A DNA stretch of 64,000 bases from Saltatorellus ferox. Its GTDB lineage: Bacteria; Planctomycetota; UBA1135; GCA-002686595. A model generated the notes under the pieces. It was not told where the DNA came from. It did not search any database and was given only the letters and a program-made list of their open reading frames with translations. Shown piece after piece: positions 3,227-22,279 of the stretch (the first letter of the stretch is position 1; each line of letters starts with the position of its first letter). The position numbers were made by a program, and so were the translations under genes. The DNA lies in NCBI GenBank assembly GCA_007751475.1, contig CP036434.1, positions 992,001-1,056,000 of the forward strand, written 5' to 3'.

Positions 3227-4252
3227 ATGAACACGACTTTCCATCCTGACGCCATCCAGACGGCAGCCAACCACACGCGCGACCTCCTTGCGCTCGCCAT
3301 CGGTCACACGGACGAGGCCGCGGCGGTGGTCGTCTGGGACGGGGACTCGGAGCTCTCGAGGGCGCTCACCGAGGCCTACCGGCTGAGCCTCCCGGACGCG
3401 ACGTTCATCGACTTCAATGCGACGGAGGCCGACGCGATTCGCGCGAGCTTCGAGGACCTGCATCCCGGCGACCTCGTCGTCATGATCCAGTCGACCAGCT
3501 TCCGCCTGGACGCCTTCCGCATTCGCATCGAGCTGTTCAACCGCTCGCTCAAGGTCGTCGAGCACCCGCACCTCGCGCGCATGACCGGTGAGGAAGCGCT
3601 CATCTACATCGAGTCCCTCGCCTACGATCCAGCGTACTTCCGCGGCGTGGGGCACGCGCTCAAGGCTCGACTGGACGAGGCCACCGTCGGAATCGTGCAG
3701 AGCGCGGGCGCCGTGCTCACGTTCCCGGTGGGCTTCGAGTCCGCGAAGATGAACATCGGCGACTACACGGGCATGAAGAACATCGGCGGGCAGTTTCCGA
3801 TCGGCGAGGTCTTCACCGAATCGCGGGATCTCGAAGCCGTGCATGGGCGCCTCACGATCTCGTTCTTCGGCGACACGTCCTTCAACCTCAAGCGTCCGCC
3901 GCACCCGATCACGCTGGTGATCGAGAAAGGGCGGGTCGTGGCCACCGAGAACTCCACCGAGGAGTTCGAGGAGGTCCTGGAGTGCATCCGGCGCGACGAC
4001 GGGGAAGTCTGGCTCCGCGAACTCGGCCTCGGCATGAACCGGGCCTTCACCCAGGATCGCACGGTTCTGGACATCGGAACCTTCGAGCGCATGTGCGGCG
4101 TCCACGTCTCGCTCGGCTCCAAGCACGCGATGTACAACAAGCCCAACATCCGCAAGAAGACCGCCAAGCACCATGTGGACGTGTTTGCCGTGACCGAGAG
4201 GGTGCTCCTCGATGGCGATGTCATCTACGAAGACGGAAATTGGGTCGTCTGA
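3227..4252 (+). CDS. M29 aminopeptidase T / NicX-like metalloprotein
   Basis: The 341-residue cytosolic protein has no leader or membrane segment. The C-terminal third carries RELGLGMNRAF, then GTFERMCGVHVSLGSKHAMY and HVDVF. This follows the order of the C-terminal metal-binding region of the M29 aminopeptidase / 2,5-dihydroxypyridine dioxygenase (NicX) superfamily, in which G-x-N, H-x-A-x-G and H-x-D segments recur. The N-terminal half (VVVWD, ALTEAYRL, PGDLVVMIQS) fits the alpha/beta N-domain of these proteins. Substrate cannot be read from the sequence; peptidase and ring-cleaving dioxygenase are both possible. It stands alone on its strand, 144 bp before the cytochrome operon. Confidence 0.6.
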   Translation: MNTTFHPDAIQTAANHTRDLLALAIGHTDEAAAVVVWDGDSELSRALTEAYRLSLPDATFIDFNATEADAIRASFEDLHPGDLVVMIQSTSFRLDAFRIRIELFNRSLKVVEHPHLARMTGEEALIYIESLAYDPAYFRGVGHALKARLDEATVGIVQSAGAVLTFPVGFESAKMNIGDYTGMKNIGGQFPIGEVFTESRDLEAVHGRLTISFFGDTSFNLKRPPHPITLVIEKGRVVATENSTEEFEEVLECIRRDDGEVWLRELGLGMNRAFTQDRTVLDIGTFERMCGVHVSLGSKHAMYNKPNIRKKTAKHHVDVFAVTERVLLDGDVIYEDGNWVV

Positions 4253-4396: not shown

Positions 4397-6625
4397 ATGA
4401 GCTGGATGACCCCTCTCGTACTCATGTGCGTCCTGCTCGTCGTGCTCGCCGCCAGCTGGGCGCGGCGGCTGGAGCGTTCGCGCATGGTGAAGACGGTCGA
4501 GGAGCGTGAGGAGGCGCGCCAGCGCGGAAGCCACGAGGCTCGCCTCCAGCATCCGCACATCGACCTGACGCGCTGCATGGGCTGCGGGCTCTGCGTGGCC
4601 GCCTGCCCGGAGCAGGGCGTGCTCGACGTCTTGCACGGCCAGGCTCGCGTCGTGCACGGCTCCCGCTGCGTGGGCCACTCCCGCTGCGCGGACGAGTGTC
4701 CGGTCGACGCCATCGCGGTGACCCTTAGCGGGGTCGAGGAACGCACTGATCTCCCCGCCATCGAGGTGGACTTCGAGGCCATCGGAAGCCCCGGGCTGTT
4801 CCTCGCAGGCGAGGTCACGGGGTTCGCCCTCGTGAGGACCGCGATTGCCCAGGGGATGGCGGTCGCGAGGGAGGTGGCGCGTCGCCGCGAGGAGACCGGG
4901 CGCGCCGCCGAGGCCAGGCCCGCCGCGGAGGACATGCTCGACCTGCTCATCGTCGGGGCGGGACCCGCGGGCATCGCCTGCTCCCTGGCCGCGCTCGAGA
5001 GCGGGTTGCGTCACGTCGTGATCGAACAGGATCAGTTCGGCGGAACCGTGGCGCACTACCCGCGGCAGAAGCTGGTGATGACCCAGCCCGTCGAGCTTCC
5101 GCTGCACGGCAAGCTCACGCAAACGACCTACACCAAGGAAGAGCTCATCGACCTCTGGCACGAGATCGCCACGCAGCACGCGCTCCCCGTTGTCACCGGC
5201 GAGCGCCTCGACGGCATCGAGCGCCGCGAGGACGGAGCCTTTCTCGTCCGGACCAGCGAGGGCTTTCGCGTCACCCGTCATGTGTGCCTCGCGCTCGGCA
5301 GGCGCGGCTCCCCGCGCAAGCTCGACGTCCCCGGCGAAGACCTGACCAAGGTCACGTACAGCCTCCTCGACGCCCGCGCGTTCGAGGGCCGGCACGTCCT
5401 CGTCGTGGGCGGCGGCGACAGCGCCATCGAGGCCGCGCTGGGGCTCGGCGCGCAGAAGGACACCACGGTCACGCTGTCCTACCGCCGCACGAGTTTCTTC
5501 CGCATCAAGGCGAAGAACGAGGCCAGGATCCTGGAGGCTTTCCACAACGGCTCGGTCCGCGCGGAGCTCGGCTCGAACGTCCGGAGAATCGGCGACGACC
5601 GCGTCGAGCTGGAGACGGATCAGGGCGTGATCGAGATTCCCAACGACCACGTCTTCGTGCTCGCCGGCGGCATCCCGCCCTTCAAGATGCTGGAGGAGTG
5701 CGGCGTGTCCTTCGATCCGGCGATGCGGCTCCCGGTCGAGGAGCCGACCGAGCGCGGCAGCGGGCTGATCAAGGCGCTCTTCGTCGCCTTCCTGCTCGCG
5801 ATGGTCACGCTCGCGTGGTCGCTCCTCCACGGCGACTACTACGACGCTCCCGCCCACCTGCGCTCGTCGATCGACGGCCACGAGCTCCTGCGCCCGGCGC
5901 GCAACGTCGGCCTCGCCTGCGGGATCGCCGCCGCGCTGGCCGTCGTCCTGAACCTTCTCTACCTGCTTCGCCGCGGCAAGCGGGCCTGGATCCGCTTCGG
6001 CTCCCTTCGTGGCTGGATGTCCCTGCACGTCGCGACCGGCGTCAGCGGCTTCCTGCTCGCCGTGGTTCACGGCGGCTTCCTCGTCCGTGATACGGCGGGC
6101 GGGCACGCCATCCTCGCCATGGGGGTGCTCATCGCCACCGGAGCGATGGGCCGCTACCTCTACTCGTTCGTTCCACGCGCCGCCAACGGCCGCGAGCTGG
6201 CGCTGGAGGAGATCCAGTCCAGGCTCGCGGGCCTCGAAGGCGAGTGGGACGCGGACCACCCGGAGTATCGGCACCGCGTGCGCGGCGAGGTCGCTCGCCT
6301 CGTGGCCGAAGGGCACTGGTCCCGTTCGCTCTGGCGCCGAGTTCTCGCGACGCTCACGGCCCAGCGCCGGCTGAAGCACACGCTGCACGGTCTCCGCCTC
6401 GAGGGCGAGGGCATGGGCGTTCCGCTGGAGCGGATCAACGACGTGCTCGGACTTGCCCAGCGCGCCCACCGCACCGCCCTCGGGGCGGCGCGGTACGAGG
6501 AACTCCGCGGCATGCTCTCCAGCTGGCGCTACATCCACCGCTGGGCCGCTCTCCTCTTCGTTCTCGTCCTGGGTGTCCACATCGTCACGGCCGTTCGCTA
6601 CGCGCACTTCGGCGCCGCCTCCTGA
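4397..6625 (+). CDS. Membrane oxidoreductase: 2[4Fe-4S] ferredoxin + FAD/NAD(P) domain + diheme cytochrome b-like domain
   Basis: 742 residues. Domains in order: N-terminal membrane helix (about 5-22); ferredoxin pair with C60, C63, C66, C70 (CMGCGLCVAACP) and a second set C91, H94, C97, C101 (CVGHSRCADECP) in which one Cys is His; thioredoxin-reductase-like FAD fold with GAGPAG near 187; NAD(P) loop VVGGGDSA near 335; then about five membrane helices from 457. His pairs H544/H558 and H714/H728 are each 14 apart, as in helices that bind two b haems. No CxxC disulfide centre is seen in the flavin domain. It probably passes electrons between NAD(P)H or ferredoxin and the membrane. Its TGA overlaps the next ATG (TGATG), so it should be translationally coupled to the multihaem cytochrome. 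Confidence 0.8.
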   Translation: MSWMTPLVLMCVLLVVLAASWARRLERSRMVKTVEEREEARQRGSHEARLQHPHIDLTRCMGCGLCVAACPEQGVLDVLHGQARVVHGSRCVGHSRCADECPVDAIAVTLSGVEERTDLPAIEVDFEAIGSPGLFLAGEVTGFALVRTAIAQGMAVAREVARRREETGRAAEARPAAEDMLDLLIVGAGPAGIACSLAALESGLRHVVIEQDQFGGTVAHYPRQKLVMTQPVELPLHGKLTQTTYTKEELIDLWHEIATQHALPVVTGERLDGIERREDGAFLVRTSEGFRVTRHVCLALGRRGSPRKLDVPGEDLTKVTYSLLDARAFEGRHVLVVGGGDSAIEAALGLGAQKDTTVTLSYRRTSFFRIKAKNEARILEAFHNGSVRAELGSNVRRIGDDRVELETDQGVIEIPNDHVFVLAGGIPPFKMLEECGVSFDPAMRLPVEEPTERGSGLIKALFVAFLLAMVTLAWSLLHGDYYDAPAHLRSSIDGHELLRPARNVGLACGIAAALAVVLNLLYLLRRGKRAWIRFGSLRGWMSLHVATGVSGFLLAVVHGGFLVRDTAGGHAILAMGVLIATGAMGRYLYSFVPRAANGRELALEEIQSRLAGLEGEWDADHPEYRHRVRGEVARLVAEGHWSRSLWRRVLATLTAQRRLKHTLHGLRLEGEGMGVPLERINDVLGLAQRAHRTALGAARYEELRGMLSSWRYIHRWAALLFVLVLGVHIVTAVRYAHFGAAS

Positions 6626-9135
6626 TGAGAATCCTTGATCCCAAGGTGTGGCTCGCTGGCGCGAGCCTCGTGCTCGTCGGAGTGCTCGCCTTCCGCGACG
6701 CGGCCGATCCGGGCCCCGGCCCGCTCCACCCCGTCCACGCCGCGATGTCGGAGCTGGCCGGACGCGACGGCTGCGTCGTCTGTCACGGAGAGCAGGGCTC
6801 GCCCATGGCCATGGCGCAGAGCTGCCTCGATTGCCATGGAGCGATCGAAGGGCAGATCGAAGGCGGCACGGGGCTGCACGGGCAGCTCGGTGGGGACCTT
6901 TTGAGTGAACAGGCGGAGGGAGCCGCGCGCTGCGACGTCTGTCACGGTGAACACCACGGCGACTCGATCACCCTGGTGGGGGACCTCGCCTTCGTTCGTG
7001 CGGGGCACGACAGCCTGGACGCCTACGATCACGCGGGGCTCGGGTTCGGGCTGGAAGGCGCGCACGCATCGCTCGCGTGCGAGGAGTGCCACGGGAACGC
7101 GCGGGTCGAGGTCCTCGCCCAGGGACAGGCGCGCTTCCTCGGCCTCGCGCAGAAATGCACGCAGTGCCATGAGGATCCGCACGAAGGCAAGATGTCGGCG
7201 AACTGCGCCGACTGCCACGGTCAGAGCGAGGCCTTCGCTGCGGTCGCCGCTTTCGAGCACCCGGACACGTTCCCTCTGACGCCGCCGCACGCGGAGATCG
7301 CGTGCAGCCAGTGTCACGAGGATGGCGTCCAGCCCGCAGCGTCGCCCGCCAGCCTCACCCACGCGATCGCGTCCCTCGCGGTCACGCGTACCTGCTCGGA
7401 TTGCCATGAGTCCTCGCACACGGGCGAGTTCCTCGCCGAGGTCGCGGTGGATTGCGCCGCCTGCCACGGGGGCGGAGCGACGACGTTCCTGGGGGCCGAC
7501 GAACACATGACGATCGGTCGCCACGCCGCCACAGGATTCGCGCTCGACGGAGCCCATGCTCGGGTCGACTGCGCCGGTTGTCACGTCGATACCGGCAGCT
7601 ACGCCGATCGCTACCTCGCGAGGACCCAAAGCGCCTGTGCCGACTGCCACGAGGACGTTCACCGCGGTGCGTTCGATGGCATGACGCTGGCGAGCGCCGC
7701 GACGGGCTCGGGCAAGAGCCCGCTGGCCATCGCGAGCGACGCAGCCCAGGCCGTCAGCTGCGCCACGTGCCACACGACGGACAGCTTCAAGTTGCCGGAG
7801 GACGCGCCGTTCGATCACGGGCGATTCACGGGCTTCGAGCTCACGGGTGCGCACTCGAGCGCGAACTGTACTGCCTGTCACGGCGAGGCGCCTGCGGCAG
7901 CGGCGGGCCTGTCCGAGGGACAGGCGCGAGACTTCGGCTTCGTCGGCGATCTCTACCCCGGCGATACCGGCCAGTGCAGCACGTGCCACGACGATGTGCA
8001 TGCGGGAGCCTTCGACCCGGAGACCGTCGCCGCGCGCTCGATGGCGGATCGGACCGAAGCGAGCCTGCTGGCCGCGACGCTGTCCCGAGGAGAGTCCGCC
8101 AAGGACTGCGCGACGTGTCACACGACGGATCGCTTCGAGTTTCCGGAGACCACGTCGTTCGACCACGGTCGCTGGACGGGATTCCGGCTCGAAGGGGCCC
8201 ACGCAGCGGCCGAGTGCGTCGGCTGCCACGGTCCTGCCGAGGAAGAGCCCAGGAACTTCGGTCTGGTCGCAGAGCACCATGACGGCGATCCGCGCACCTG
8301 CAGCACCTGCCACGAGAGTCCCCACGGCGACCGCTTCGTCGAGATGAACGATCCGGAGACCGGCTTGCTCGATTGCCAGCGTTGCCACACGGTCCGCGAC
8401 TTCCTCGAGATTCGTCCTGGGACGTTCGATCACGGCGAGGCCACCGGCTTCGTGCTCGCCGGGGCCCACGCCCAGGCGAAGTGCACCGTTTGCCACGTTC
8501 CCGCGAAGAACGACGCAGTCCGGCTCGGGAAGGTCGAGAACGCGTTTCCCGGGAACACGGAGCGCTGCGCGACGTGCCACAGGGACCCTCACCGGGGCGC
8601 CTTCCGCACGCAGCGAGTCGGCCAGGGCGCGCTCGCTCGCGAGATCCCGAACGACTGTTCGACCTGTCACGGGCCCGCGTCCTTCCACGTGACCGAGCCC
8701 TTCGATCACGGGAAGTGGACGGGCTGGCCGCTGGAGAACTCCCACGCCGAGGTCGCCTGCGTCGAGTGCCACGCGGCACAGCCAGTCGATCCGCTCGGTC
8801 GCACGCGCGGATTCGCCAAGGGCAACCGCTGCACGGACTGTCATGCGGATCCGCACCTCGGCCAGTTCAATCAGCCAGTGAAGGGCAAGGCAGCCGATCT
8901 CCAGAGCGACCCCAGCTGCGTGCGCTGTCACACGACGGAGGGCCCGTTCGATTCCCTGGTGTTCGACCACGACACGGCGCGTTTCGCGCTCGATAGCCAC
9001 CACGCGGAACTGGCTTGCCATCAGTGCCACAAGACGGCGACGACGAAGGATGGAAGGACGGCGGTCCGCTACCGGCCCCTCGGGACCGAGTGCGTGGACT
9101 GCCACGGCGTGACCTTCCGGCGGGGCGACAAGTGA
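6625..9135 (+). CDS. 26-haem c-type cytochrome, periplasmic
   Basis: The start is the ATG at 6625, overlapping the upstream stop; the open frame runs further 5' only as a shadow. The 836-residue product has an N-terminal hydrophobic segment (about 7-22) that may be a leader or membrane anchor. I count 26 CxxCH haem-binding motifs spread evenly along the chain. A module recurs about five times: CxxCH, then FDHG-x-(F/W)TGF-x-L-x-G-A-H, then CxxCH, then CSTCH-x-D-x-H-x-G-x-F; the extra His residues are likely distal ligands. It would form a long electron wire across the periplasm. It is coupled by TGATG overlaps to the oxidoreductase before it and the barrel gene after it. Confidence 0.88.
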   Translation: MRILDPKVWLAGASLVLVGVLAFRDAADPGPGPLHPVHAAMSELAGRDGCVVCHGEQGSPMAMAQSCLDCHGAIEGQIEGGTGLHGQLGGDLLSEQAEGAARCDVCHGEHHGDSITLVGDLAFVRAGHDSLDAYDHAGLGFGLEGAHASLACEECHGNARVEVLAQGQARFLGLAQKCTQCHEDPHEGKMSANCADCHGQSEAFAAVAAFEHPDTFPLTPPHAEIACSQCHEDGVQPAASPASLTHAIASLAVTRTCSDCHESSHTGEFLAEVAVDCAACHGGGATTFLGADEHMTIGRHAATGFALDGAHARVDCAGCHVDTGSYADRYLARTQSACADCHEDVHRGAFDGMTLASAATGSGKSPLAIASDAAQAVSCATCHTTDSFKLPEDAPFDHGRFTGFELTGAHSSANCTACHGEAPAAAAGLSEGQARDFGFVGDLYPGDTGQCSTCHDDVHAGAFDPETVAARSMADRTEASLLAATLSRGESAKDCATCHTTDRFEFPETTSFDHGRWTGFRLEGAHAAAECVGCHGPAEEEPRNFGLVAEHHDGDPRTCSTCHESPHGDRFVEMNDPETGLLDCQRCHTVRDFLEIRPGTFDHGEATGFVLAGAHAQAKCTVCHVPAKNDAVRLGKVENAFPGNTERCATCHRDPHRGAFRTQRVGQGALAREIPNDCSTCHGPASFHVTEPFDHGKWTGWPLENSHAEVACVECHAAQPVDPLGRTRGFAKGNRCTDCHADPHLGQFNQPVKGKAADLQSDPSCVRCHTTEGPFDSLVFDHDTARFALDSHHAELACHQCHKTATTKDGRTAVRYRPLGTECVDCHGVTFRRGDK

Positions 9136-10859
9136 TGAGGGGAACGATGAGGGGTCTGTGTTCAAGAGCGGGGCTGATGGCCCTGGGGCTGGCTTCGACG
9201 ACGGGCTGGGCCGCATCCGCAGCGGCGGGGGTCGACGCAGAACTCGATGCCTCGGCCAGCGTCCAGGTCGACTTTCGCGTGATCTCTGCGCCGGTGGTCT
9301 CCGGAGGTTCGACCCTGGTTCGCATCGACCGGGGTGCGTCCGCAGGACTGGCGCCGGGCGATCGCGTCACGTTCCGGCCACTCGGCGGGAGCCCGGTGCA
9401 GGGCGTCGTGCAGACCGTCGAGGAGCGCGAATCCGTCGTCGACGTGGCGCAGGCCACCGATCAGCTCATGCCGGGCGTCCCCGGTGAAGTCGCCGTACCG
9501 GCCTCACGTCTCCCGGGCGGCGAGGATCCGCAGCCTACCGACCAGGGCGATTACCCGCCGATCGAGTGGACCTCCGACGAGGTCGAGTGGACCGAGGGCA
9601 CGCCGCTGCTCGCGGAGGCGCGCGTGCTCGAACGGGAGGAGCGCCCGCCGGTCTGGCGCGGCCGCGTCTACATGACGTCCGACCTCATTCATGACGGAGT
9701 GGGAGCGGGGCGAGATGATCTCTTCTCGCGCCTCGGCATGGACGCGCGAGGGACGAACCTCTTCGGATTCGGCGGCGAGTTCCGGATCGACGGTGAGGTG
9801 AACATGCGCGACACCCAGGTAGCGGACGGTCAGGGGGAACAGGACACGCTCGCCCGCCTCGACCGCTTTTCGTATGCGCTCGGCGGCGTGCGGGGCGAGC
9901 CCCGGCGCATCGAGGTCGGACGGTTCTTGCCGCGCGAGTTCCCCGAACTCGGGCTACTGGATGGCGCCGAGGTCTCATGGCGTACCGGCGCGGGTCACAG
10001 CGTCGGAGCGAGCATCGGCTACTTGCCGTCCAACGACCGCGAACGCTCCACGGGAGATACGCTTCAGATCTCCTCCTGGGGCACGCTGATGGTCGACGAG
10101 GACCAGCGCTTTCAGCTCGGGGCCGCGCTGCAGAAGACGTGGCACATGGGCGAGGCGGATCGCCAGCTCTTCCTGGCGCGCCTGCGCTGGAGCCCGAACG
10201 GGCCGTGGAGCGCCTTCGCGACGGCCTGGGTCGACTTCTACGATTCGAACGATCCGCTGAAGCAAGATTCGGTCGAGCTGACCCAGGCCATCGCCAGTCT
10301 CTCGCGCCGGATCGGTAAGTACTCGGGCGTGTCCCTGTCCTCCAGCATGAACCGCTACCCGTCGCTTCTGCGGAACGGAATCCAGGACCTGGGCTCCAGC
10401 ATCATCACCGACGGAAGCAACCGGCGCGTGAGCCTCTCCGGCTGGACTCGACTGAGCGACGTGGATCGCATCAACGTTCGCGCGGACCAGTGGGCCGATC
10501 AGAGCTCGAGCGGAGCGGGCGGAGAGTTCGGCTGGGGCCATCAGCTCGACGGTCCACGGATCCAGCGAATCAACACCTCGGTGTTCTACCGAGAGGGCCG
10601 ATTCGGTGCCGTCAAGGGACTGCGTACCGGCATCGGCGGGCCCCTGAGTGGCGGTAGCTGGCGGGCGGACCTGGACGCGGGTCTCTTTGGACAGGCGCGG
10701 TTCGATGGATCTCAGGCGGATCTCTTCCAGGGAGCGCTTTCACTGGGCTGGGACGGCATCATTGGCGCTGACTGGCTTCTCTCCCTGACGACCGCCTATC
10801 GCTTCGGAGACGAGCAAGACGCCGTCTCGCTTGGTTTCCTCCTCCAGCGGAGCTTCTGA
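9135..10859 (+). CDS. Outer-membrane beta-barrel protein, putative porin of a porin-cytochrome conduit
   Basis: 574 residues from the ATG at 9135 (TGATG overlap); a second ATG at 9147 is equally possible. A signal peptide ends near AASAAAG. Residues of about 40-115 form a small beta domain (GASAGLAPGDRVTF, VQTVEERESVVDV). From about residue 180 to the end the chain alternates polar and hydrophobic residues with many aromatics and repeated strand-like segments. The protein ends in LLQRSF, a terminal Phe preceded by alternating residues, the classic C-terminal signal of outer-membrane barrels. Position between two multihaem cytochromes suggests it is the sheath that lets them meet across the outer membrane, as MtrB and OmbB do. 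I cannot show homology to either. Confidence 0.72.
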   Translation: MRGTMRGLCSRAGLMALGLASTTGWAASAAAGVDAELDASASVQVDFRVISAPVVSGGSTLVRIDRGASAGLAPGDRVTFRPLGGSPVQGVVQTVEERESVVDVAQATDQLMPGVPGEVAVPASRLPGGEDPQPTDQGDYPPIEWTSDEVEWTEGTPLLAEARVLEREERPPVWRGRVYMTSDLIHDGVGAGRDDLFSRLGMDARGTNLFGFGGEFRIDGEVNMRDTQVADGQGEQDTLARLDRFSYALGGVRGEPRRIEVGRFLPREFPELGLLDGAEVSWRTGAGHSVGASIGYLPSNDRERSTGDTLQISSWGTLMVDEDQRFQLGAALQKTWHMGEADRQLFLARLRWSPNGPWSAFATAWVDFYDSNDPLKQDSVELTQAIASLSRRIGKYSGVSLSSSMNRYPSLLRNGIQDLGSSIITDGSNRRVSLSGWTRLSDVDRINVRADQWADQSSSGAGGEFGWGHQLDGPRIQRINTSVFYREGRFGAVKGLRTGIGGPLSGGSWRADLDAGLFGQARFDGSQADLFQGALSLGWDGIIGADWLLSLTTAYRFGDEQDAVSLGFLLQRSF

Positions 10860-12148
10860 TGGCACCGACCGAACGACTCCCCCGCAATCCACTGCTCCTG
10901 GCGCTCGCCTCGTTGATGCTCTTCGCATGCGTGGGGGGCCAGCTCTTCCAGAGTGAGCCCCAGGGCTGGTGGGCGGAGCGCGGGCCCGTGGTGCCGCACG
11001 AGACCTTTCCGGCGAGCTGCGATCTCTGTCACGAGCCAGGGGACTGGGTGACGCTCAAGCCGGACTTCGAGTTCGACCACGAGAAGGAGACGGGAGTGGC
11101 GCTGGAGGGTGCGCACGAGGGAGCCCAGTGTCTGCGCTGTCACAACGACCGCGGGCCCGTCGCGGACTTCGCGGCGCTTGGCTGTGCGGGCTGCCACGAG
11201 GACGTGCACGAAGGCCTGCAGGGCAAGCGCTGCGATACCTGCCACGACCAGCAGAAGTGGCGCGTCACGGGGATGATCGCCGAGCACGCGCGGACGCGCT
11301 TCCCGCTCGTCGGTGCCCACGCGGCGACGGCGTGCAGGCGCTGTCACGAGGGAATCGAGGCGGGCATCCTGGCGCCGCTGGACGTCGAGTGCATCAGCTG
11401 CCACCAGGCAGACCTCGCGCGCGCGGCCAGCCCGAATCACGTCGCGAACGGCTGGACGGAAAGCTGCGATCGCTGCCACATTCCGACCGGCTGGAACGGG
11501 GCCGCGTTCAATCACAACACGTTCCCGCTGACCGGGCAGCATCGCGTGACCAACTGCGCCGAATGCCACGTGAACAACGTGTACGCTGGCACGCCGCGTG
11601 ACTGCGTCGAATGCCACCGCCAGGAATACCTCGGCACGACCGATCCCAACCACATCGCTTCTGGATTCCCGGAGGACTGCGCCCAGTGCCACACGACATC
11701 GGGCTGGGACGGCGCCTTCTTCAACCACTCGACCTACCCGTTGACGGGCAGGCACGCGACGGCAGACTGCGCGCAGTGCCACGCGAACAACGTCTATTCG
11801 GGTACGCCCCGCGACTGCGTGGAGTGTCACCGCCAGGAGTACCTGAGCACGAACGATCCGCCCCACGTCTCTTCGGGTTTCCCGGAGACCTGCCAGCAGT
11901 GTCACAACACGAGCAGCTGGGGCGACGCCAATTTTGACCACACGTTCCCGATCAACTCCGGCGATCACCGAAACTTCGACTGCATGGAGTGCCACCAGAC
12001 GCCCAGTAACTACCTGAACGTCAGCTGCATCCATTGTCACGATCACCGGCAGTCGAGAATGGACGACAAGCACAGCGACGTGAACAACTACACCTGGAGC
12101 AGTCCGGCGTGCATCAGCTGTCACCCGGACGGCCGCGCGGACGACTGA
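10859..12148 (+). CDS. 16-haem c-type cytochrome lipoprotein, outer membrane or cell surface
   Basis: 429 residues, starting at the ATG that overlaps the barrel gene's TGA. The N-terminus is a short basic segment, a hydrophobic run and LFAC, so C24 is a likely lipidation site. I count 16 CxxCH motifs. The C-terminal half holds a repeat of about 67 residues (CDRCH or CAQCH, a GW...FNH segment, PLTG-x-H, CAECH or CAQCH, NNVY-x-GTPRDCVECHRQEYL) present in two near-identical copies and a shorter third. As the last gene of the four-gene set it is the natural candidate for the outermost electron carrier. It converges with the SDR gene, with 15 bp between the stop codons. Confidence 0.88.
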   Translation: MAPTERLPRNPLLLALASLMLFACVGGQLFQSEPQGWWAERGPVVPHETFPASCDLCHEPGDWVTLKPDFEFDHEKETGVALEGAHEGAQCLRCHNDRGPVADFAALGCAGCHEDVHEGLQGKRCDTCHDQQKWRVTGMIAEHARTRFPLVGAHAATACRRCHEGIEAGILAPLDVECISCHQADLARAASPNHVANGWTESCDRCHIPTGWNGAAFNHNTFPLTGQHRVTNCAECHVNNVYAGTPRDCVECHRQEYLGTTDPNHIASGFPEDCAQCHTTSGWDGAFFNHSTYPLTGRHATADCAQCHANNVYSGTPRDCVECHRQEYLSTNDPPHVSSGFPETCQQCHNTSSWGDANFDHTFPINSGDHRNFDCMECHQTPSNYLNVSCIHCHDHRQSRMDDKHSDVNNYTWSSPACISCHPDGRADD

Positions 12149-13302: not shown

Positions 13303-14274
13303 ATGATCCACAAGCTCCTTGCGCGAGCGTTTCCGCTCGCGCTACTCCTCGCCCTCGGGCCTCTGGCTTCCGCAGCGCCGGATGTGGGCGATCCACTGCC
13401 GAGGCCCGGGTTCGACGAACTGAAGCAGACGGCGGCCAAGTCGTTCGAAGACTTCACAGGGCGCGTTCTCCTCATCGAATTCTTCGAGTACTGGTGAGGC
13501 CACTGCAAGACTCAGATCCCCTACCTCAACGCTATCCAGCAGAAGTACGGCGAGAAGGGACTGACCGTCATTGGCGTGGCCAGTGACTCCAAGGACAAGA
13601 CCGACGAATTCATCGAATCGACGGGCGCGAAGTACGCGTACGCCTACGGCACGGGGAAGCTCTTCAAGGACGTGGGAGCGACCGGGTACCCGCTCATACT
13701 CCTCGTCGACTCTGGCGGCACCATCCTCTTTCAGGGAGATGCCTCCAAGCTGGACGAGTCGCTCATTGCGAAGGCGGTCGAGACCGCCCTCACGGTTCCG
13801 CTCTACGAATGGCCTGACGATCTGAGGAAGGCCGCGAGTTCGCTCCGGAAGGGTGATCTCGGCAGGGCGCTGACGGAGGTCGAAGACGCGGGGGAAACCC
13901 ACGCGAAGATCGCGGGCTCGCTTCAGGGGATGATCGAAGGTCGTCTGACGGCCGTTCGAAGAGCCGCGGACGCGGGCGACTGGCTCGCGGTCAAGACGCT
14001 CGGCGATGCGCTGACGGGTGCCATCGAGGGACGACCGGAGGTCGACGTGGTGGAAGCGCTTCTCGCTCGACTGAAGGAGGACGACGCGAAAGACATCCTG
14101 AAGGCCCAAGAGCAGATCGCCAAGATCTTCGAACGCGACATCAAGGCGAAGCAGTTCGAGACCCTTCAGAAGAAGATCGACCGCATCGCCGAGGACTTTC
14201 CGGCCGAGAGCGTCGTGCGCCGCGACGCGGAGCACGCTCACAAGCGGCTCCGCGAGATCTGCGGGAAGACGTAG
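13303..14274 (+). CDS. Thioredoxin/TlpA-like protein with in-frame TGA at the redox motif (probable selenoprotein)
   Basis: Reading through one TGA (13495-13497) gives 323 residues. Residues 1-24 are a signal peptide (ALLLALGPLASAA). The thioredoxin fold follows: GRVLLIEFFEYW, then TGA at codon 65, then GHCKTQIPYL, with VIGVASDS and the cis-Pro segment GYPLILLVD downstream. In the family this site reads WCGHC or WCGPC, so TGA stands exactly at the first redox Cys, giving U65-G-H-C68. Both flanks are in one frame and well conserved. The C-terminal 120 residues are helical and unrecognised. Candidate pairing after the TGA is weak (TGAGG with CCTCA at 13524), so I cannot confirm a bacterial SECIS. 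A TGC-to-TGA nonsense mutation or sequencing error is the alternative. Confidence 0.75.
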
Positions 14275-14314
14275 TTCCGACGCGTCCCGGGCCATCCCCG
14301 GGGCCTGGCTACGA

Positions 14315-15757: not shown

Positions 15758-15946
15758 GGCCCCTGGAACCCCGCAACCCGCGCCAGGTTCCGGGCCAGCG
15801 GATCCCATTACCTGAAGTGCGCGCGTCATCGCCAAAAAAAGCCGATACAGGCCAATCTGGAGCCGCCCCGCGCCGTTGGTCTCCCACACGCCCGCATCAC
15901 GCGCCGTTGTTGCTCCTACTTCGTCTCCTGTCCCGAGTTGAGCCCC

Positions 15947-18900
15947 ATGAATCGACTTCTATCTGCCTGCATCGCCCTCTCGACGTTCTCGTTGGCCCCA
16001 CTCCAGGCACAGGTGAGCCTTCCTGAATCGTTCGGCAGGCTTCCAGCGGGCTTTTACGAGGAGTTCGCGCTGTCCGAGGACCGTGGGAAGACCCTTGACG
16101 CGCTCCTGCCCGGGACCGTGGAGCACTACTACTTCTCCAGCCTCGTGCTCCAGCAAGGGGGTCAGCTCGACTCCGTCGACGAGCTCCTCCAGAGCTGGAA
16201 GAAGACCCACGGGGAAGGGGCTGATTATCGCCAGATCGAGGCGCGTCAGGCGCTTCTCCGCGCGTCCACAGATCCGGCGGTGACCTATGCTTTCCTGGAG
16301 AGAGAGCTCGGGCTCCGCTTCAACGAGCGACGAGTGGTCCCAGGCGAGTCGCCGAACGCTCCGACCTCGCTCGATCCGGATCAGATCTCGACCGAGCGGC
16401 TGCTGGAGAAGGCGCTCCGCCGCAACTCGCGCCAGCCGCTGCAGGACATGGACCCTGTGCTCCTGGAGTCGCTGGTTCGAAGAAGGCTCACGGACAATCA
16501 GCGCGGTTGGCTCCTCGAGCAGCTGCCGCGCCCCGACGTGCCCGGGCTGGTGGAGCTGATCGTCCAGGACATGGCGTCGTCCGACCGGGTCACGTTCGGT
16601 ACGCGCAGCGTTCACGCGAAGCTGACGCTCGCCCAGCTGGAGGCGCTGCGGGCCGCGCGCCCCGAGATGCTCTCCAACTCGACCTACGTGAACACGGTGA
16701 TGCAGCGGCTCGCGCCCCGCTTCCCCGAGACGATCGAGGACCGTGCCGATCAGCTGGCCTACCTGGAGCGCGCCTGGGAGTTCGCGTCGCTCCTCCCGCA
16801 GGCGTTCGTCTCGCTCAAAGCGCATCTTCTGTACCACTGGATCGCCTTCGAACTCGACGGCGGCGGGGTGAACGAGGAACGGCTCTTGACCTACTTGCGT
16901 TTGCCGCGGCAGACCCGACTCTGGGTGAGCCCGCGCAACGACTCGCGCCAGCGCGCGTCGCTCGGAGATGACTTTCGCTCGATCACGCCTTTTCCCGCGA
17001 TCGGCTCGGAGGACGCGCTCATCCACGAGTGCCTCCTGAAGGTCTTCCAGGCTTCGAACCAGTACCAGCGTTACGTGGGCGCGCTCGAGCAGGACTTCGT
17101 CCGGGAGACGTTCGCCGAGGCCAAGCTGCTCTACGGCGACCCGGAGCAAGCCGATGAGTACATCAAGTGGCTCGGCGCCGCGCGCGCGGAGGCCCTCCGC
17201 CAGCGAGTTGACATCGAATTCGCTCGCACGAACCCCCGCGATCTCGCGCCCGAAGACGAAGTGACGCTCCAGGTCGACGTCAAGAACGTCGACCGAATGA
17301 TCGTCAAGGTCTTCGAGGTCGATCCCGTCGCGTACTTCGATCGCTTCGAGCGTCCGGTGAACTCGAGCCTCGATCTCGATGGACTGGTGGCGAACGAGAC
17401 CCGCGTGCTGGAGTTCGACGCGCCGCCGATTCGGCGGGTCCGACGGGAACTCCGAATGGACTCGCTCTCGAAGCCAGGGACCTACGTCGTCGAGTTGATC
17501 GGCGGGGGAGTCTCCAGCCGCGCCGTGGTCGTGAAGGGGGCGCTTCAGCTCCTGGAGCGCCAGACGGCGGCCGGGCATCTTCTGCGCGTGATCGACGGGA
17601 GCGGCCAGCCCAAGGACGATGCGATCGTGCGATTCGGCGGTCGCGACTACCTTCCGAACGAGCAGGGGCAGATCCTGGTGCCGTTCTCGCCGCGCGGTAG
17701 CTTCAAGCGGGTTCTTCTCCGCAGTGGAGCGGTGACGTCGATCGCTCGCTTCGAGCACCGTGCGGAGAACTACCAACTCGCCGCGCCCGCCCACGCGCCG
17801 CTCGAAGGGCTACTGGAGGGCACGAAGGCCACCATCCTCACCCGACCCGCTCTGACGCTCAACGGTCGCCGCATCCCCATGGCCGCGGTCAAGGACGCAA
17901 CGCTCTACGTCACGGCGACGACCAAGGACGGGACGAGGAGCCAGAGCGTGGCCACGGGCTTCGACTTCACCGAGAGCGGTGACATCGTCCACGAGATCAC
18001 GGTTCCCGAGCGTGTCGACACGTTGACGGTGATGCTGCGCGTGACCGTTCGCAGCCTCTCCCTGGGTGAGGACGTCGTCCTCGACGGTGCGCCCACGTCG
18101 TTCCCCGTGAACCAGAGCCACACCGAGAGCCCGTTCCATTCCTACCTGACGCAGAACCCGGACGACGGGTACGCAGTCGATCTACTGGGGCGTGCCGGCG
18201 AGCCGATCACCGATACCGAGGTCCAGATTTCCCTCACCAACCGAATGGTCGGCGTGACCGAGTCGGTGCGGCTCAAGACCGATGAGCGGGGGCGAGTTCG
18301 GCTGGGGCCGCTCGCGGACATCGACTCGCTCCGCGTGATCTCGCCGTCGAACGCCACCAATGCGTGGGACATCCGGACGCTCCCCGCGGCGGGCCTTCCG
18401 GGTCAGCTGCACGCCCAAGCCGGGCAGCCGCTGCGCGTCCCGTACTCGGTGAGGTCGAAGGAGGTGACGCGAGCGCTCGCTTCGCTCCTTTCGATCGACG
18501 CGCAGGGTCAGCCGATCCGTGACCATTTCGACGCGCTGTCTCTGGCGAATGGCTACCTCGTGGTGGCCGGGCTGCCCGCGGGCGAATACTCCCTGACGCT
18601 GGAGCGTTTCGCGCAGACGTTTCGGTTGACGGTTCTGGAGGGCAAGATTGCCTTCGGGCACATCGTGGGAGAGCAACATGCGCTCGACGTGGTCGACGCC
18701 GTTCCGCTGCAGATCGTGCAGGTCTCGAGGTCGGGCGATGCGCTGCTCGTGCAGCTCGGAGGCTCGACGCCGAGAGCGCGAGTGCAGGTCATCGCGACGC
18801 GCTTCGTCGAGCCGATCCTTGCCAGGGGAGCGCTCGGTCTTGGGCTACTGGCGTCCCCAGCTCGAACCGACTTCGGTGCGCTGTTCACGACCTACGAGTC

Positions 18901-21900
18901 GGGCCGCGAGATCAGCGACGAGTACCGCTACATCCTCGATCGTCGCCTGATCGATCCTTTCCCAGGCAACATGCTGACCCGCCCGGGCTACCTGCTCCAT
19001 CCGTGGGCTCTCCAGGAGACGGACGATCGGATGATGGACGATGGGCGTGATGGGTCACGGTTCGGTGGGAAGCGCAACTCGCGTGCGGGCGGCCATGCCA
19101 TCGCGGAATCATCCTTCGAACCGCCCTCGGTGGCCGGAGGCGCCGCCTTCCACGCTCCTGATTTCCTTGCGGAGGGTGCCGTCTTCCTGACGGATCTTCG
19201 CCCCGACGAGCAGGGTCGGGTGCGGATCCCGATCGCGGACCTGGGCGACAAGCACATCGTGCAGATCGTGGCCATGGATGACTCGATCACCGTGGATGAA
19301 CTGATCGTGCGTGCGGAGGCGCCGATGGCGTTGCGTGAGCGCCGGCTGGTCGATGCGCTGGATCCCGAGAAGCCGATGACCCAGCAGCGCCGGATCGAAT
19401 TTCTAGGGGCGGGAGACTCGTACGTGATTCGCGACGCGCCGAACGCGGGCGCCAAGACCTTCGGGTCGCTGAGCGACGTGTTCGAGCTGTACCGCACCAG
19501 CGGGCAAGGGATCGAGGAGATGGGCCAGTTCGACTTCCTCGTGCGATGGCCCGAACTCTCCGAGCTGGAGAAGCGGTCGAAGTACTCGGAGTTCGCCTGC
19601 CATGAGATGCATGTGTTCCTGCGTGAGCGAGACCCGGAGTTCTTCCGGTCGATCGTGGTGCCGCATCTCTCCAGCAAGGGCCACGCGACCTTCATGGACG
19701 ACTGGCTGCTGGACCGCGACCTGAGCGGCTACCTGGAGCCGTGGCGATTCGAGCAGCTCAACGTGGTGGAGCTGATTCTGCTGCTCCGTGAGACGGGAGG
19801 CGATGCCGCGGCGATCACGCGGGATCTGCTCGGGCTGCTGCCGCCGGGGTCATTCTCGCTGGACGCTTCGTTCGCGGAGATCCTGGCGAGCCGAGGGCTC
19901 TCCACCACGACGGCCTCGCTGGCGCTGGCCCTGGACAATGCCAGGAGTGAGGCGATGGAGAAGTCCTTGAGCTCGCTCGGCTACGCCGGCGCGCCCGTGG
20001 CGCCAGCGCCGTCCGGAGCCGCCTCGGATAGCGACGACTTCTTCCTGGGTCGCCAGTCGACAGAGACGAGGTCCCGGAGGCAGGCGGAGGCGGCGCCGGC
20101 GCTGGAGGGCGCGCTGAGCGAGCTCGCGGATCTGGAAGAGACGGTGGAGGAAGTCGAGCTGGATCAGCTCGGGCTCCGGCAGGAGGTCGAAGGCTTCTAC
20201 TATCGCGATCTCGCCAGGACCGTCGAGTACGCTGAGACCCACTACTGGCATGTTCGCCTCGGAAGGATGAATGCCGATCTCGTGACGGTCTCGCCGTTCT
20301 GGGTCGATTTCGCGGCGGCGGGTCCCGGCCCGTTCACCTCGGGTGCCTTCCCGCTGGCGAATCGCAGCGTGACCGAGAAGCTGCTGGCGCTGGCGTTCCT
20401 GGACCTTCCGTTCACGGCGGACGAGCCGGAGGTGAGCGCGGACGGTCGCAGCGTGACGATCCAGGCGAAGTCTCTCATGTTCCTGGCGCTGGAGGATATC
20501 GCGCTGGCCGCGTCGGAGGAGGGCTCGCCCACGGTGCTCGTGGGCCAGGACTTCTTCGACCCCGAGCGTCGTAGCGAGACGGTGGACGGTGTGACCCGTG
20601 ATCGATTCGTGACCGGTGAGTTCCTGAAGGGCGTCCGCTACGGGTGCCGCATGGTGGTGACGAATCCGTCGTCGTCCACGCTCCAGATGCAGCTTCTCGC
20701 GCAGATCCCGGAGGGTGCGATCCCGCTCGGCGACAGTCACATGACGCGCGGCATCCCGGTGACGCTCGGGAGCTACGGCACGACCTCGCTGGAGACGTAC
20801 TTCTACTTCCCGAAGTCAGGGACGTACCGCGACTATCCGGTGCATGCGGGCAGCGGCAGCGTGCTCCTGGGCGCGGCGGAACCGTCGACCTTGCAGGTCG
20901 TGGACGAGGTCTCGGAGATCGATCGGACGACCTGGGAATGGGTATCGCAGAACGCGGAGCTTCCGGAGGTGCTGGAGTACCTCCGCGCCAAGAACCCGCG
21001 CGACCTCGATCTCGGGCAGATCGCCTGGCGCATGGGAGATCCAGGTGCGTTCGCGTCGGTGACGGACACGCTCGGCCAGCGCGGCCTCTTCCCGGACGTG
21101 CTCTGGAAGTACGCGGTCAAGCACCGGGACGCCGCACGGACGGAGCGCTTCCTGGCAGCACAGGAGGGATTCGTCCAGCGCGTGGCTGCGCCCTTCGCCT
21201 CGCCGTTGCTCAGTCTCGACGCACGTGACCGGAAGGCCTACGAGCATCTCGCCTACGAGCCGCTCGTGAACGGCCGCACCCATGAGTTCGGCGGCGAGCG
21301 GAAGATCCTGAACGACCAGTTCCGCGGGCAGTACCAGCGGTTCCTGTCGACGCTCGTCCTCGAGGAGGAGATCGACGCGGAGGAGCGCGTCGAACTCGTG
21401 TACTACCTCCTTCTGCAGGATCGAATCGCCGAGGCGCTCCGCTTCTACGGGAGCATCGACGCCAGCAATCTGCGGACTCGGGTGCAGTACGACTACATGA
21501 CGGCGTACATGGCGTTCTACCGGGAGGACGTGGCCATGGCCCGCGGCGTGGCCGAGGGCTACCGGGACTACCCGGTCGACCTCTGGCGGTCGCGCTTCCG
21601 CAACGTGCTGACCCAGGCGGACGAGATCGAGGGTCAGCCGGGCAGCGGGTTCGGCGCGGATCCCGACGATCGGGACCAGAGCCAGGGGGCTCTGGCGGGC
21701 GCGGAACCGCTCCTTGCCGTGGAGGTCGATGGGGGCAATGTGATCGTCAGCGCCGAGTCGATCGACGAGGTCGAGGTCCGCTACCACCGGATGGACGTGG
21801 AGTTTCTGTTCTCGAACAGCCCGTTCGTGCGTGGCGGCCAGGGCACGTTCGGGGTGATCCGTCCGTCCCGCGTGGACCGCTATCAGGTCCAGTCGGACCA

Positions 21901-22279
21901 AACTCAGCTCTCGATCCCTCTGCCCGATGACCTCCGAACCGCGAACGTGGTGGTCGAGGTCCGGGGCGAGGGCATCACCCGCCAGGCGACCTATTTCGCG
22001 GGCGACCTGGTGGTCCAGGGAATCGAGCGCTACGGCCAGATCCGCGTGCGAGCGGGCGCAGAAGGCGCCGCTCTCCCGAAGGCGTACGTGAAGGTCTACG
22101 CTCTCCTCCAGAACGGAGAGACCCGCTTCCACAAGGACGGCTACACGGACCTGAGGGGCCGCTTCGACTACGTCTCCCTCTCAGGAGTCAGCGGCCCTTC
22201 CGTGGAACGCTACGCCCTACTGGTGATGCACGAGGCGGCCGGCGCGAGCATGCTAGAACTCGCCCCCCCGTCCCGCTGA
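15947..22279 (+). CDS. Giant secreted protein with alpha-2-macroglobulin-like beta domains
   Basis: 2110 residues starting at the ATG at 15947; a TTG three codons earlier is less likely. Residues 1-22 are a signal peptide (ALSTFSLAPLQAQ). The first ~430 residues are helical. From about 440 a beta domain appears (VTLQVDVKNVDRMIVKVFEV, then SKPGTYVVELIGGG), which resembles the MG domains of alpha-2-macroglobulins. More beta domains follow, and the region DEQGRVRIPIADLGDKHIVQ suits the same family. I see no CxEQ thioester, so trapping by thioester chemistry is unlikely. Residues of about 1350-1400 are low-complexity and acidic. The tail contains carboxypeptidase-regulatory-like segments (LPKAYVKVYALLQ). 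The exact role is unknown. A long palindrome follows 15 bp after the stop. Confidence 0.6.
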   Translation: MNRLLSACIALSTFSLAPLQAQVSLPESFGRLPAGFYEEFALSEDRGKTLDALLPGTVEHYYFSSLVLQQGGQLDSVDELLQSWKKTHGEGADYRQIEARQALLRASTDPAVTYAFLERELGLRFNERRVVPGESPNAPTSLDPDQISTERLLEKALRRNSRQPLQDMDPVLLESLVRRRLTDNQRGWLLEQLPRPDVPGLVELIVQDMASSDRVTFGTRSVHAKLTLAQLEALRAARPEMLSNSTYVNTVMQRLAPRFPETIEDRADQLAYLERAWEFASLLPQAFVSLKAHLLYHWIAFELDGGGVNEERLLTYLRLPRQTRLWVSPRNDSRQRASLGDDFRSITPFPAIGSEDALIHECLLKVFQASNQYQRYVGALEQDFVRETFAEAKLLYGDPEQADEYIKWLGAARAEALRQRVDIEFARTNPRDLAPEDEVTLQVDVKNVDRMIVKVFEVDPVAYFDRFERPVNSSLDLDGLVANETRVLEFDAPPIRRVRRELRMDSLSKPGTYVVELIGGGVSSRAVVVKGALQLLERQTAAGHLLRVIDGSGQPKDDAIVRFGGRDYLPNEQGQILVPFSPRGSFKRVLLRSGAVTSIARFEHRAENYQLAAPAHAPLEGLLEGTKATILTRPALTLNGRRIPMAAVKDATLYVTATTKDGTRSQSVATGFDFTESGDIVHEITVPERVDTLTVMLRVTVRSLSLGEDVVLDGAPTSFPVNQSHTESPFHSYLTQNPDDGYAVDLLGRAGEPITDTEVQISLTNRMVGVTESVRLKTDERGRVRLGPLADIDSLRVISPSNATNAWDIRTLPAAGLPGQLHAQAGQPLRVPYSVRSKEVTRALASLLSIDAQGQPIRDHFDALSLANGYLVVAGLPAGEYSLTLERFAQTFRLTVLEGKIAFGHIVGEQHALDVVDAVPLQIVQVSRSGDALLVQLGGSTPRARVQVIATRFVEPILARGALGLGLLASPARTDFGALFTTYESGREISDEYRYILDRRLIDPFPGNMLTRPGYLLHPWALQETDDRMMDDGRDGSRFGGKRNSRAGGHAIAESSFEPPSVAGGAAFHAPDFLAEGAVFLTDLRPDEQGRVRIPIADLGDKHIVQIVAMDDSITVDELIVRAEAPMALRERRLVDALDPEKPMTQQRRIEFLGAGDSYVIRDAPNAGAKTFGSLSDVFELYRTSGQGIEEMGQFDFLVRWPELSELEKRSKYSEFACHEMHVFLRERDPEFFRSIVVPHLSSKGHATFMDDWLLDRDLSGYLEPWRFEQLNVVELILLLRETGGDAAAITRDLLGLLPPGSFSLDASFAEILASRGLSTTTASLALALDNARSEAMEKSLSSLGYAGAPVAPAPSGAASDSDDFFLGRQSTETRSRRQAEAAPALEGALSELADLEETVEEVELDQLGLRQEVEGFYYRDLARTVEYAETHYWHVRLGRMNADLVTVSPFWVDFAAAGPGPFTSGAFPLANRSVTEKLLALAFLDLPFTADEPEVSADGRSVTIQAKSLMFLALEDIALAASEEGSPTVLVGQDFFDPERRSETVDGVTRDRFVTGEFLKGVRYGCRMVVTNPSSSTLQMQLLAQIPEGAIPLGDSHMTRGIPVTLGSYGTTSLETYFYFPKSGTYRDYPVHAGSGSVLLGAAEPSTLQVVDEVSEIDRTTWEWVSQNAELPEVLEYLRAKNPRDLDLGQIAWRMGDPGAFASVTDTLGQRGLFPDVLWKYAVKHRDAARTERFLAAQEGFVQRVAAPFASPLLSLDARDRKAYEHLAYEPLVNGRTHEFGGERKILNDQFRGQYQRFLSTLVLEEEIDAEERVELVYYLLLQDRIAEALRFYGSIDASNLRTRVQYDYMTAYMAFYREDVAMARGVAEGYRDYPVDLWRSRFRNVLTQADEIEGQPGSGFGADPDDRDQSQGALAGAEPLLAVEVDGGNVIVSAESIDEVEVRYHRMDVEFLFSNSPFVRGGQGTFGVIRPSRVDRYQVQSDQTQLSIPLPDDLRTANVVVEVRGEGITRQATYFAGDLVVQGIERYGQIRVRAGAEGAALPKAYVKVYALLQNGETRFHKDGYTDLRGRFDYVSLSGVSGPSVERYALLVMHEAAGASMLELAPPSR

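Follow-up and report, generated by a model that had tools for sequence, protein, structure and literature searches.

On the forward strand of Saltatorellus ferox contig CP036434.1, the window (the whole 64,000-nucleotide stretch of DNA analysed here) carries a gene of 323 residues that opens with an ATG at 13303 and closes with a TAG at 14272-14274 (13303-14274, +). The frame contains a single TGA, at 13495-13497 (codon 65), which falls on the first Cys position of a thioredoxin CGHC motif and reads LIEFFEYW-U-GHCKTQIPYL in context. The earlier note had described one continuous frame with its TGA at this position and an intact continuation of 259 codons, and both statements stand: 258 codons lie between the TGA and the stop, or 259 with the TGA counted. 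The standard-code ORF list splits the gene into a 64-codon ORF and a 232-codon ORF with a downstream GTG start. GC content at third codon positions (GC3) is 0.77 before the TGA and 0.83 after it. From Pfam matches and a structure model, we read the whole gene as an exported TlpA/ResA-like UxxC selenoprotein; from the frame and an alignment of homologues, we read the TGA as the selenocysteine (Sec) that opens the U-G-H-C redox motif.

Other features fit around this codon. Approximately residues 1-25 (13303-13377, +) resemble a signal peptide by eye, and pLDDT is below 50 at residues 1-23. Cys68, the expected resolving cysteine, is encoded by TGC at 13504-13506 (+), and Pro130, which we take to be the thioredoxin cis-proline, by the codon at 13690-13692 (+). 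Both are invariant in alignment A2, whose invariant columns also include Sec/Cys65 and Gly86. Residues 28-143 match Pfam Redoxin (PF08534; 53.7 bits against a gathering score of 26.6) and AhpC-TSA (PF00578; 51.1 against 26), and the model shows a thioredoxin fold (pLDDT 87.7) with the redox motif preceding a helix. The best PDB match is the DsbE-like 3gl3 (TM 0.81-0.85 by target length, four chains). Of the former reading as an exported UxxC thioredoxin/TlpA-like enzyme, the enzyme type is thus borne out by Pfam and fold, while export remains a judgement of the signal peptide by eye.

Relative to the TlpA/ResA/DsbE type, the protein shares the Pfam matches over residues 28-143, the fold of 3gl3 and ResA, and a UxxC/CxxC motif with an invariant Pro130, but it places Sec first, ends in an added helical region of roughly 160 residues, and falls below the NCBIfam cut-offs for TlpA (48.1 against 230 bits), ResA (42.1 against 170) and DsbE (39.1 against 123.15). 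None of the 19 listed NCBIfam models reaches its cut-off. The additional region (residues 160-323; 13780-14271, +) forms eight helices when modelled alone, with a confident pLDDT of 93.2. A PDB search with it returned no match at E<=0.001 (best E 0.32); the weak matches include TPR proteins such as BamD (E 0.67), and a few A2 members match TPR models at E<=0.01 (TPR_14 in 3/66, TPR_6 in 2/66).

The TGA is widely conserved. The family search gave a match at E<=0.001 in all 81 of 81 genomes, the window's included, some of them weak only. Exactly one TGA is present in 53 of the 58 listed family matches with E<=1e-35, the window gene included; the remaining five are a fragment in G076 that starts past the site, Cys in G062, in the second copy of G056 and in G032, and GAG in a further G005 copy. 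Direct reading of the codons gave TGA as codon 65 at 38 of the 39 places aligned, with the window gene itself and some second gene copies counted among them; L045 lacks coverage of the site. The lone exception, L029, reads TGT and is the distant ninth match, the eight close relatives being metagenome-assembled genomes. Over 88 aligned places, duplicates and paralogues among them, the codon is TGA in 77, TGC in 8, TGT in 2 and GAG in 1. Frames run to full length (312-377 residues) at 77 places, with TGA in 72 of them.

Exchange between Cys and Sec at codon 65, a check that had been suggested for this gene, was found. Homologues such as L076, L077, L078, L081 and L082 carry Cys there, and a tree of 90 rows holds 78 with Sec, 11 with Cys and one with neither (L128, in which both UxxC and CxxC are absent at the site); since 60 stretches were chosen by hand from among the matches, 78/90 is not an unbiased Sec share. 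At least seven Sec-Cys exchanges are needed on this tree. All seven rows of the smallest starred set containing the window gene carry Sec, and L021 lies at zero distance from L138 of genome G206, a genome listed under the window's phylum. The tree omits L030 and L068, which repeat the window gene; L022, L023, L024, L026 and L028 (second copies of kept genes); L097 (start like L096); a misaligned second place in L083; L027, for its upstream TAA and lack of a start; L045; L077 (frame not closed); and the G005 copy with GAG. It also leaves out places with fewer than 230 residues past the site, namely L084, L065, L067, L029, L071 and the minor L047 and L055 matches.

Beyond the TGA, the DNA evolves as in-frame coding sequence: changes are in excess at third positions in 9/9 pairs, and L034 and L035, for example, differ at 7 first, 3 second and 27 third positions across 258 codons.

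Individual copies show further variation. Tandem family copies with TGA in both occur in L055 and L102 (G018, G027). L027 has an extra in-frame TAA shortly upstream of the TGA (~5079-5102), and is either a damaged gene or an assembly error. L084 (G015; site 659, minus strand) contains another TGA in frame, 18 codons past the first, which may be a second Sec, an error or decay. The G005 copy L079 (codon at 3417) reads GAG and so has neither Sec nor Cys, suggesting that redox function may not extend to every paralogue.

The 7.72-Mb, single-contig genome encodes the machinery for Sec that the earlier note had proposed to look for, with selA, selB, selD and a tRNA-Sec all present. One selA scores 453.5 bits (cut-off 267.9) with the full SelA model, the Pfam SelA N-terminal family giving no match in the genome; selB scores 342.1 bits with its neighbours in frame (cut-off 242.25). 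There is one tRNA-Sec match above the gathering score (70.9 against 47), which ARAGORN also calls as tRNA-Sec with anticodon TCA. The selD gene (327 bits, cut-off 125) lies approximately 1.4 kb from selA and carries its own in-frame TGA in CAG-U-AAK, a UxxK motif. UxxK is tabulated as the motif of selenophosphate synthetase (table in PMC13188914).

Other genes of the genome behave similarly. In-frame TGA is found in 5 of its 16 AhpC-TSA matches, the window gene among them; the other four are L063 (NWUPYC), L065 (GFWUPPC), L067 (GFWUGPC) and L070 (ASWUQGC). These four, with their TGA at redox motifs, stand beside L018 and the Sec-containing selD as other in-frame TGA genes of the genome. Counting selD, at least six genes carry TGA in frame at a position of redox or active-site function, which reaches the number given in PMC5029168 for calling an organism selenoprotein-rich.

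Three other readings of the locus have to be weighed. If the TGA were a true stop or a wrong base, the gene would be a pseudogene or a sequencing error, a reading to which the failure to find a strong SECIS, the upstream TAA of L027 and the early second TGA of L084 lend something. We consider it very improbable, as many separate genomes hold TGA at the identical codon position, frames of full length recur at the places counted above, third positions change in excess 3' of the TGA, and the genome has the Sec machinery. A miscalled base at 13495-13497, named beforehand as an observation that would overturn the Sec reading, is excluded because independent genomes carry the same TGA. Reassignment of TGA to Trp, Gly or Cys, genome-wide or by context, could account for in-frame TGA in at least six genes, but TGA is still an ordinary stop that terminates 21 of the 34 coding-like ORFs of the window. 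Moreover, the TGAs seen occupy redox or active-site positions, homologues of the window gene show Cys, and neither Trp nor Gly, at its TGA site, and a tRNA-Sec with a TCA anticodon is present; we therefore judge reassignment highly unlikely.

An uninterrupted antisense ORF of 317 aa (13342-14295, -) could in principle be the true gene and the sense frame its by-product. That ORF is indeed open, and 51 of 77 gene copies, counting that of the window, have an antisense frame open over at least 300 codons. It is the sense protein, however, that Pfam and solved structures match, and changes concentrate at sense third positions; the antisense frame has a GC3 of 0.66 and a GC1 of 0.81, against a GC3 of 0.77-0.83 in the sense frame. 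This makes an antisense gene improbable in the extreme. Computation shows a conserved TGA inside the frame that exchanges with Cys, Sec machinery in the genome and a thioredoxin fold in the protein, and codon 65, on sequence evidence, almost certainly encodes selenocysteine.

We also considered UAA and UAG as Sec codons and rejected them. Thirteen matches contain TAA or TAG, none at the Sec site: in 12 of the 13 it lies at the match end or a few codons off, and in the partial match of L137 it is residue 154 of 167. G048 (L111), also listed with TAG, reads TGA at the Sec site.

The signal that would recode the UGA is less distinct. A candidate SECIS (13495-13528, +), weak and unproven, is suggested by folding and consensus, with UGAGG pairing with CCUCA and closing 24 nt. 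This stem by itself is the minimum-energy fold of the first 45 nt (-3.9 kcal/mol, z +0.53 against shuffles), in agreement with the earlier remark that no obvious SECIS exists beyond the UGAGG/CCUCA pairing; the fold of 13490-13545 is likewise no better than shuffles (z +0.75). A SECIS consensus was built from 33 distinct sequences and again from 24. In the latter, 94.8% of cells are paired in the base stem UGAGG/CCUCA and 75.7% in an inner stem UGCGG/CCGCA, which is missing from the window gene's own fold. The outer stem proves nothing alone, because it is partly dictated by conserved residues (Gly66; Leu75-Asn76), and the two-stem consensus is paired in 85.2% of cells against 84.8% in shuffles, with no covariation (1 double change against 1.0 expected).

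Within the same genome, the fold comparison comes out better for selD (z -1.92) and L065 (z -3.03) but not for L070 (z +0.18) or L067 (z 0.00). In selD a strong stem, UGAGCUGCC opposite GGCAGCUCA, has the TGA at its base, so that a UGA-starting stem is plausible, if unproven, for the SelB of this genome. The window gene, with its weak SECIS, could serve as a test case for the minimal signal that SelB needs. The second L055 copy has a hairpin of -17.8 kcal/mol that includes the UGA.

With high confidence, we interpret the gene as an exported thiol-disulfide oxidoreductase of the TlpA/ResA type, in which Sec65 attacks and Cys68 resolves (UGHC). SelB and Sec-tRNA would decode the UGA as Sec, aided by a hairpin just downstream, and the protein would then be secreted, given the signal noted by eye. 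U65 may attack a substrate disulfide or an oxidised sulfur, leaving Cys68 to resolve the selenyl-sulfide. Electrons would presumably be returned by a membrane reductase of the DsbD type, for which the genome offers one candidate, the one protein matched by DsbD_TM. The C-terminal helical region may bind a partner or substrate.

SelA accompanies the family. It is found in 76 of the 81 family genomes (74 above cut-off) and in all 29 with completeness of 90% or more and contamination of 5% or less; those without it (G033, G034, G046, G058 and G060) are 64-80% complete (G046 67%), and G058 and G060 have a TGA match though SelA is unmatched. Across the phylum, 323 of the 392 genomes have a match to the family profile at E<=1e-20. 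Among the matches listed (to ~9e-48) are 125 genomes, with a TGA copy in 105; further TGA copies may exist in other genomes of the phylum, since only these best matches were listed. From genome lists transcribed by hand, SelA (E<1e-40) is present in 100 of the 105 genomes for which a TGA copy is listed and in 146 of the 287 others (246/392 overall). It is also found in 16 of the 20 genomes whose listed copies are all non-TGA. The five TGA genomes in which SelA is absent at E<1e-40 (G101, G161, G249, G286 and G336) are in many contigs and 77-92% complete, two of them at 91-92%, and incompleteness is a likely, though unproven, cause.

UxxC TlpA-like selenoproteins are a known kind, and the window member is, as far as we searched, undescribed. 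Prokaryotic selenoproteins are tabulated in a 2026 review (PMC13188914), which lists, as predicted, a UxxC "thiol-disulfide isomerase-like protein" (cd02966), a UxxC "Prx-like thiol:disulfide oxidoreductase" (PF00578) and a "Redoxin family protein" (PF08534), and these, as tabulated, share with the window protein a TlpA-like or redoxin domain that carries UxxC; "planctomyc" does not occur in the main text. UxxC families in PF00578 and PF13905, and a redoxin family, are tabulated in a 2022 review (tables of PMC9312934), and PMC4807772 reports putative selenoproteins from two planctomycetes. The main text of the deep-Sep paper (PMC12013277) does not contain "planctomycet", "thioredoxin" or "TlpA". 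Among titles on planctomycete selenoproteins or UxxC TlpA proteins, we found none that names the family, and one may exist.

NF041054, a ResA-like WAxxUGC motif-containing protein, is also close: its ResA-like domain likewise has Sec within the motif, and 64 of 66 A2 members match it at E<=0.001; the window protein, however, scores 26.4 bits against its cut-off of 300, and the motif in its name is UGC, not UGxC. What is new is a Sec-dominated, two-domain planctomycete family, its window member under all NCBIfam cut-offs. Gene calling with TGA as a stop would yield a short peptide and a headless fragment, and a widespread planctomycete redox enzyme may therefore be missing from protein databases. 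More tentatively, and with considerable doubt, the family may comprise phylum-wide periplasmic two-domain oxidoreductases in which Sec is the norm and which automatic annotation mostly shortens, the window species using a minimal UGA-starting stem signal that standard SECIS models would reject.

Among ORFs of at least 90 codons, a comparison of eight relatives with 10 kb of the window matched only one ORF of the window, the antisense ORF of the selenoprotein gene. Some relatives share neighbour genes among themselves. Downstream, an ORF of 2113 aa (15938-22279) has no Pfam match at E<=0.001 and looks alpha-2-macroglobulin-like by eye. Upstream, two multihaem cytochrome ORFs (6244-9135 and 10859-12148) have Cytochrome_C7, c3 and MtrC-like Pfam matches. 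Between them lies a 614-aa ORF with no Pfam match, a terminal Phe and, by eye, the look of an outer-membrane barrel, and 6244-12148 is possibly a porin-cytochrome electron conduit.
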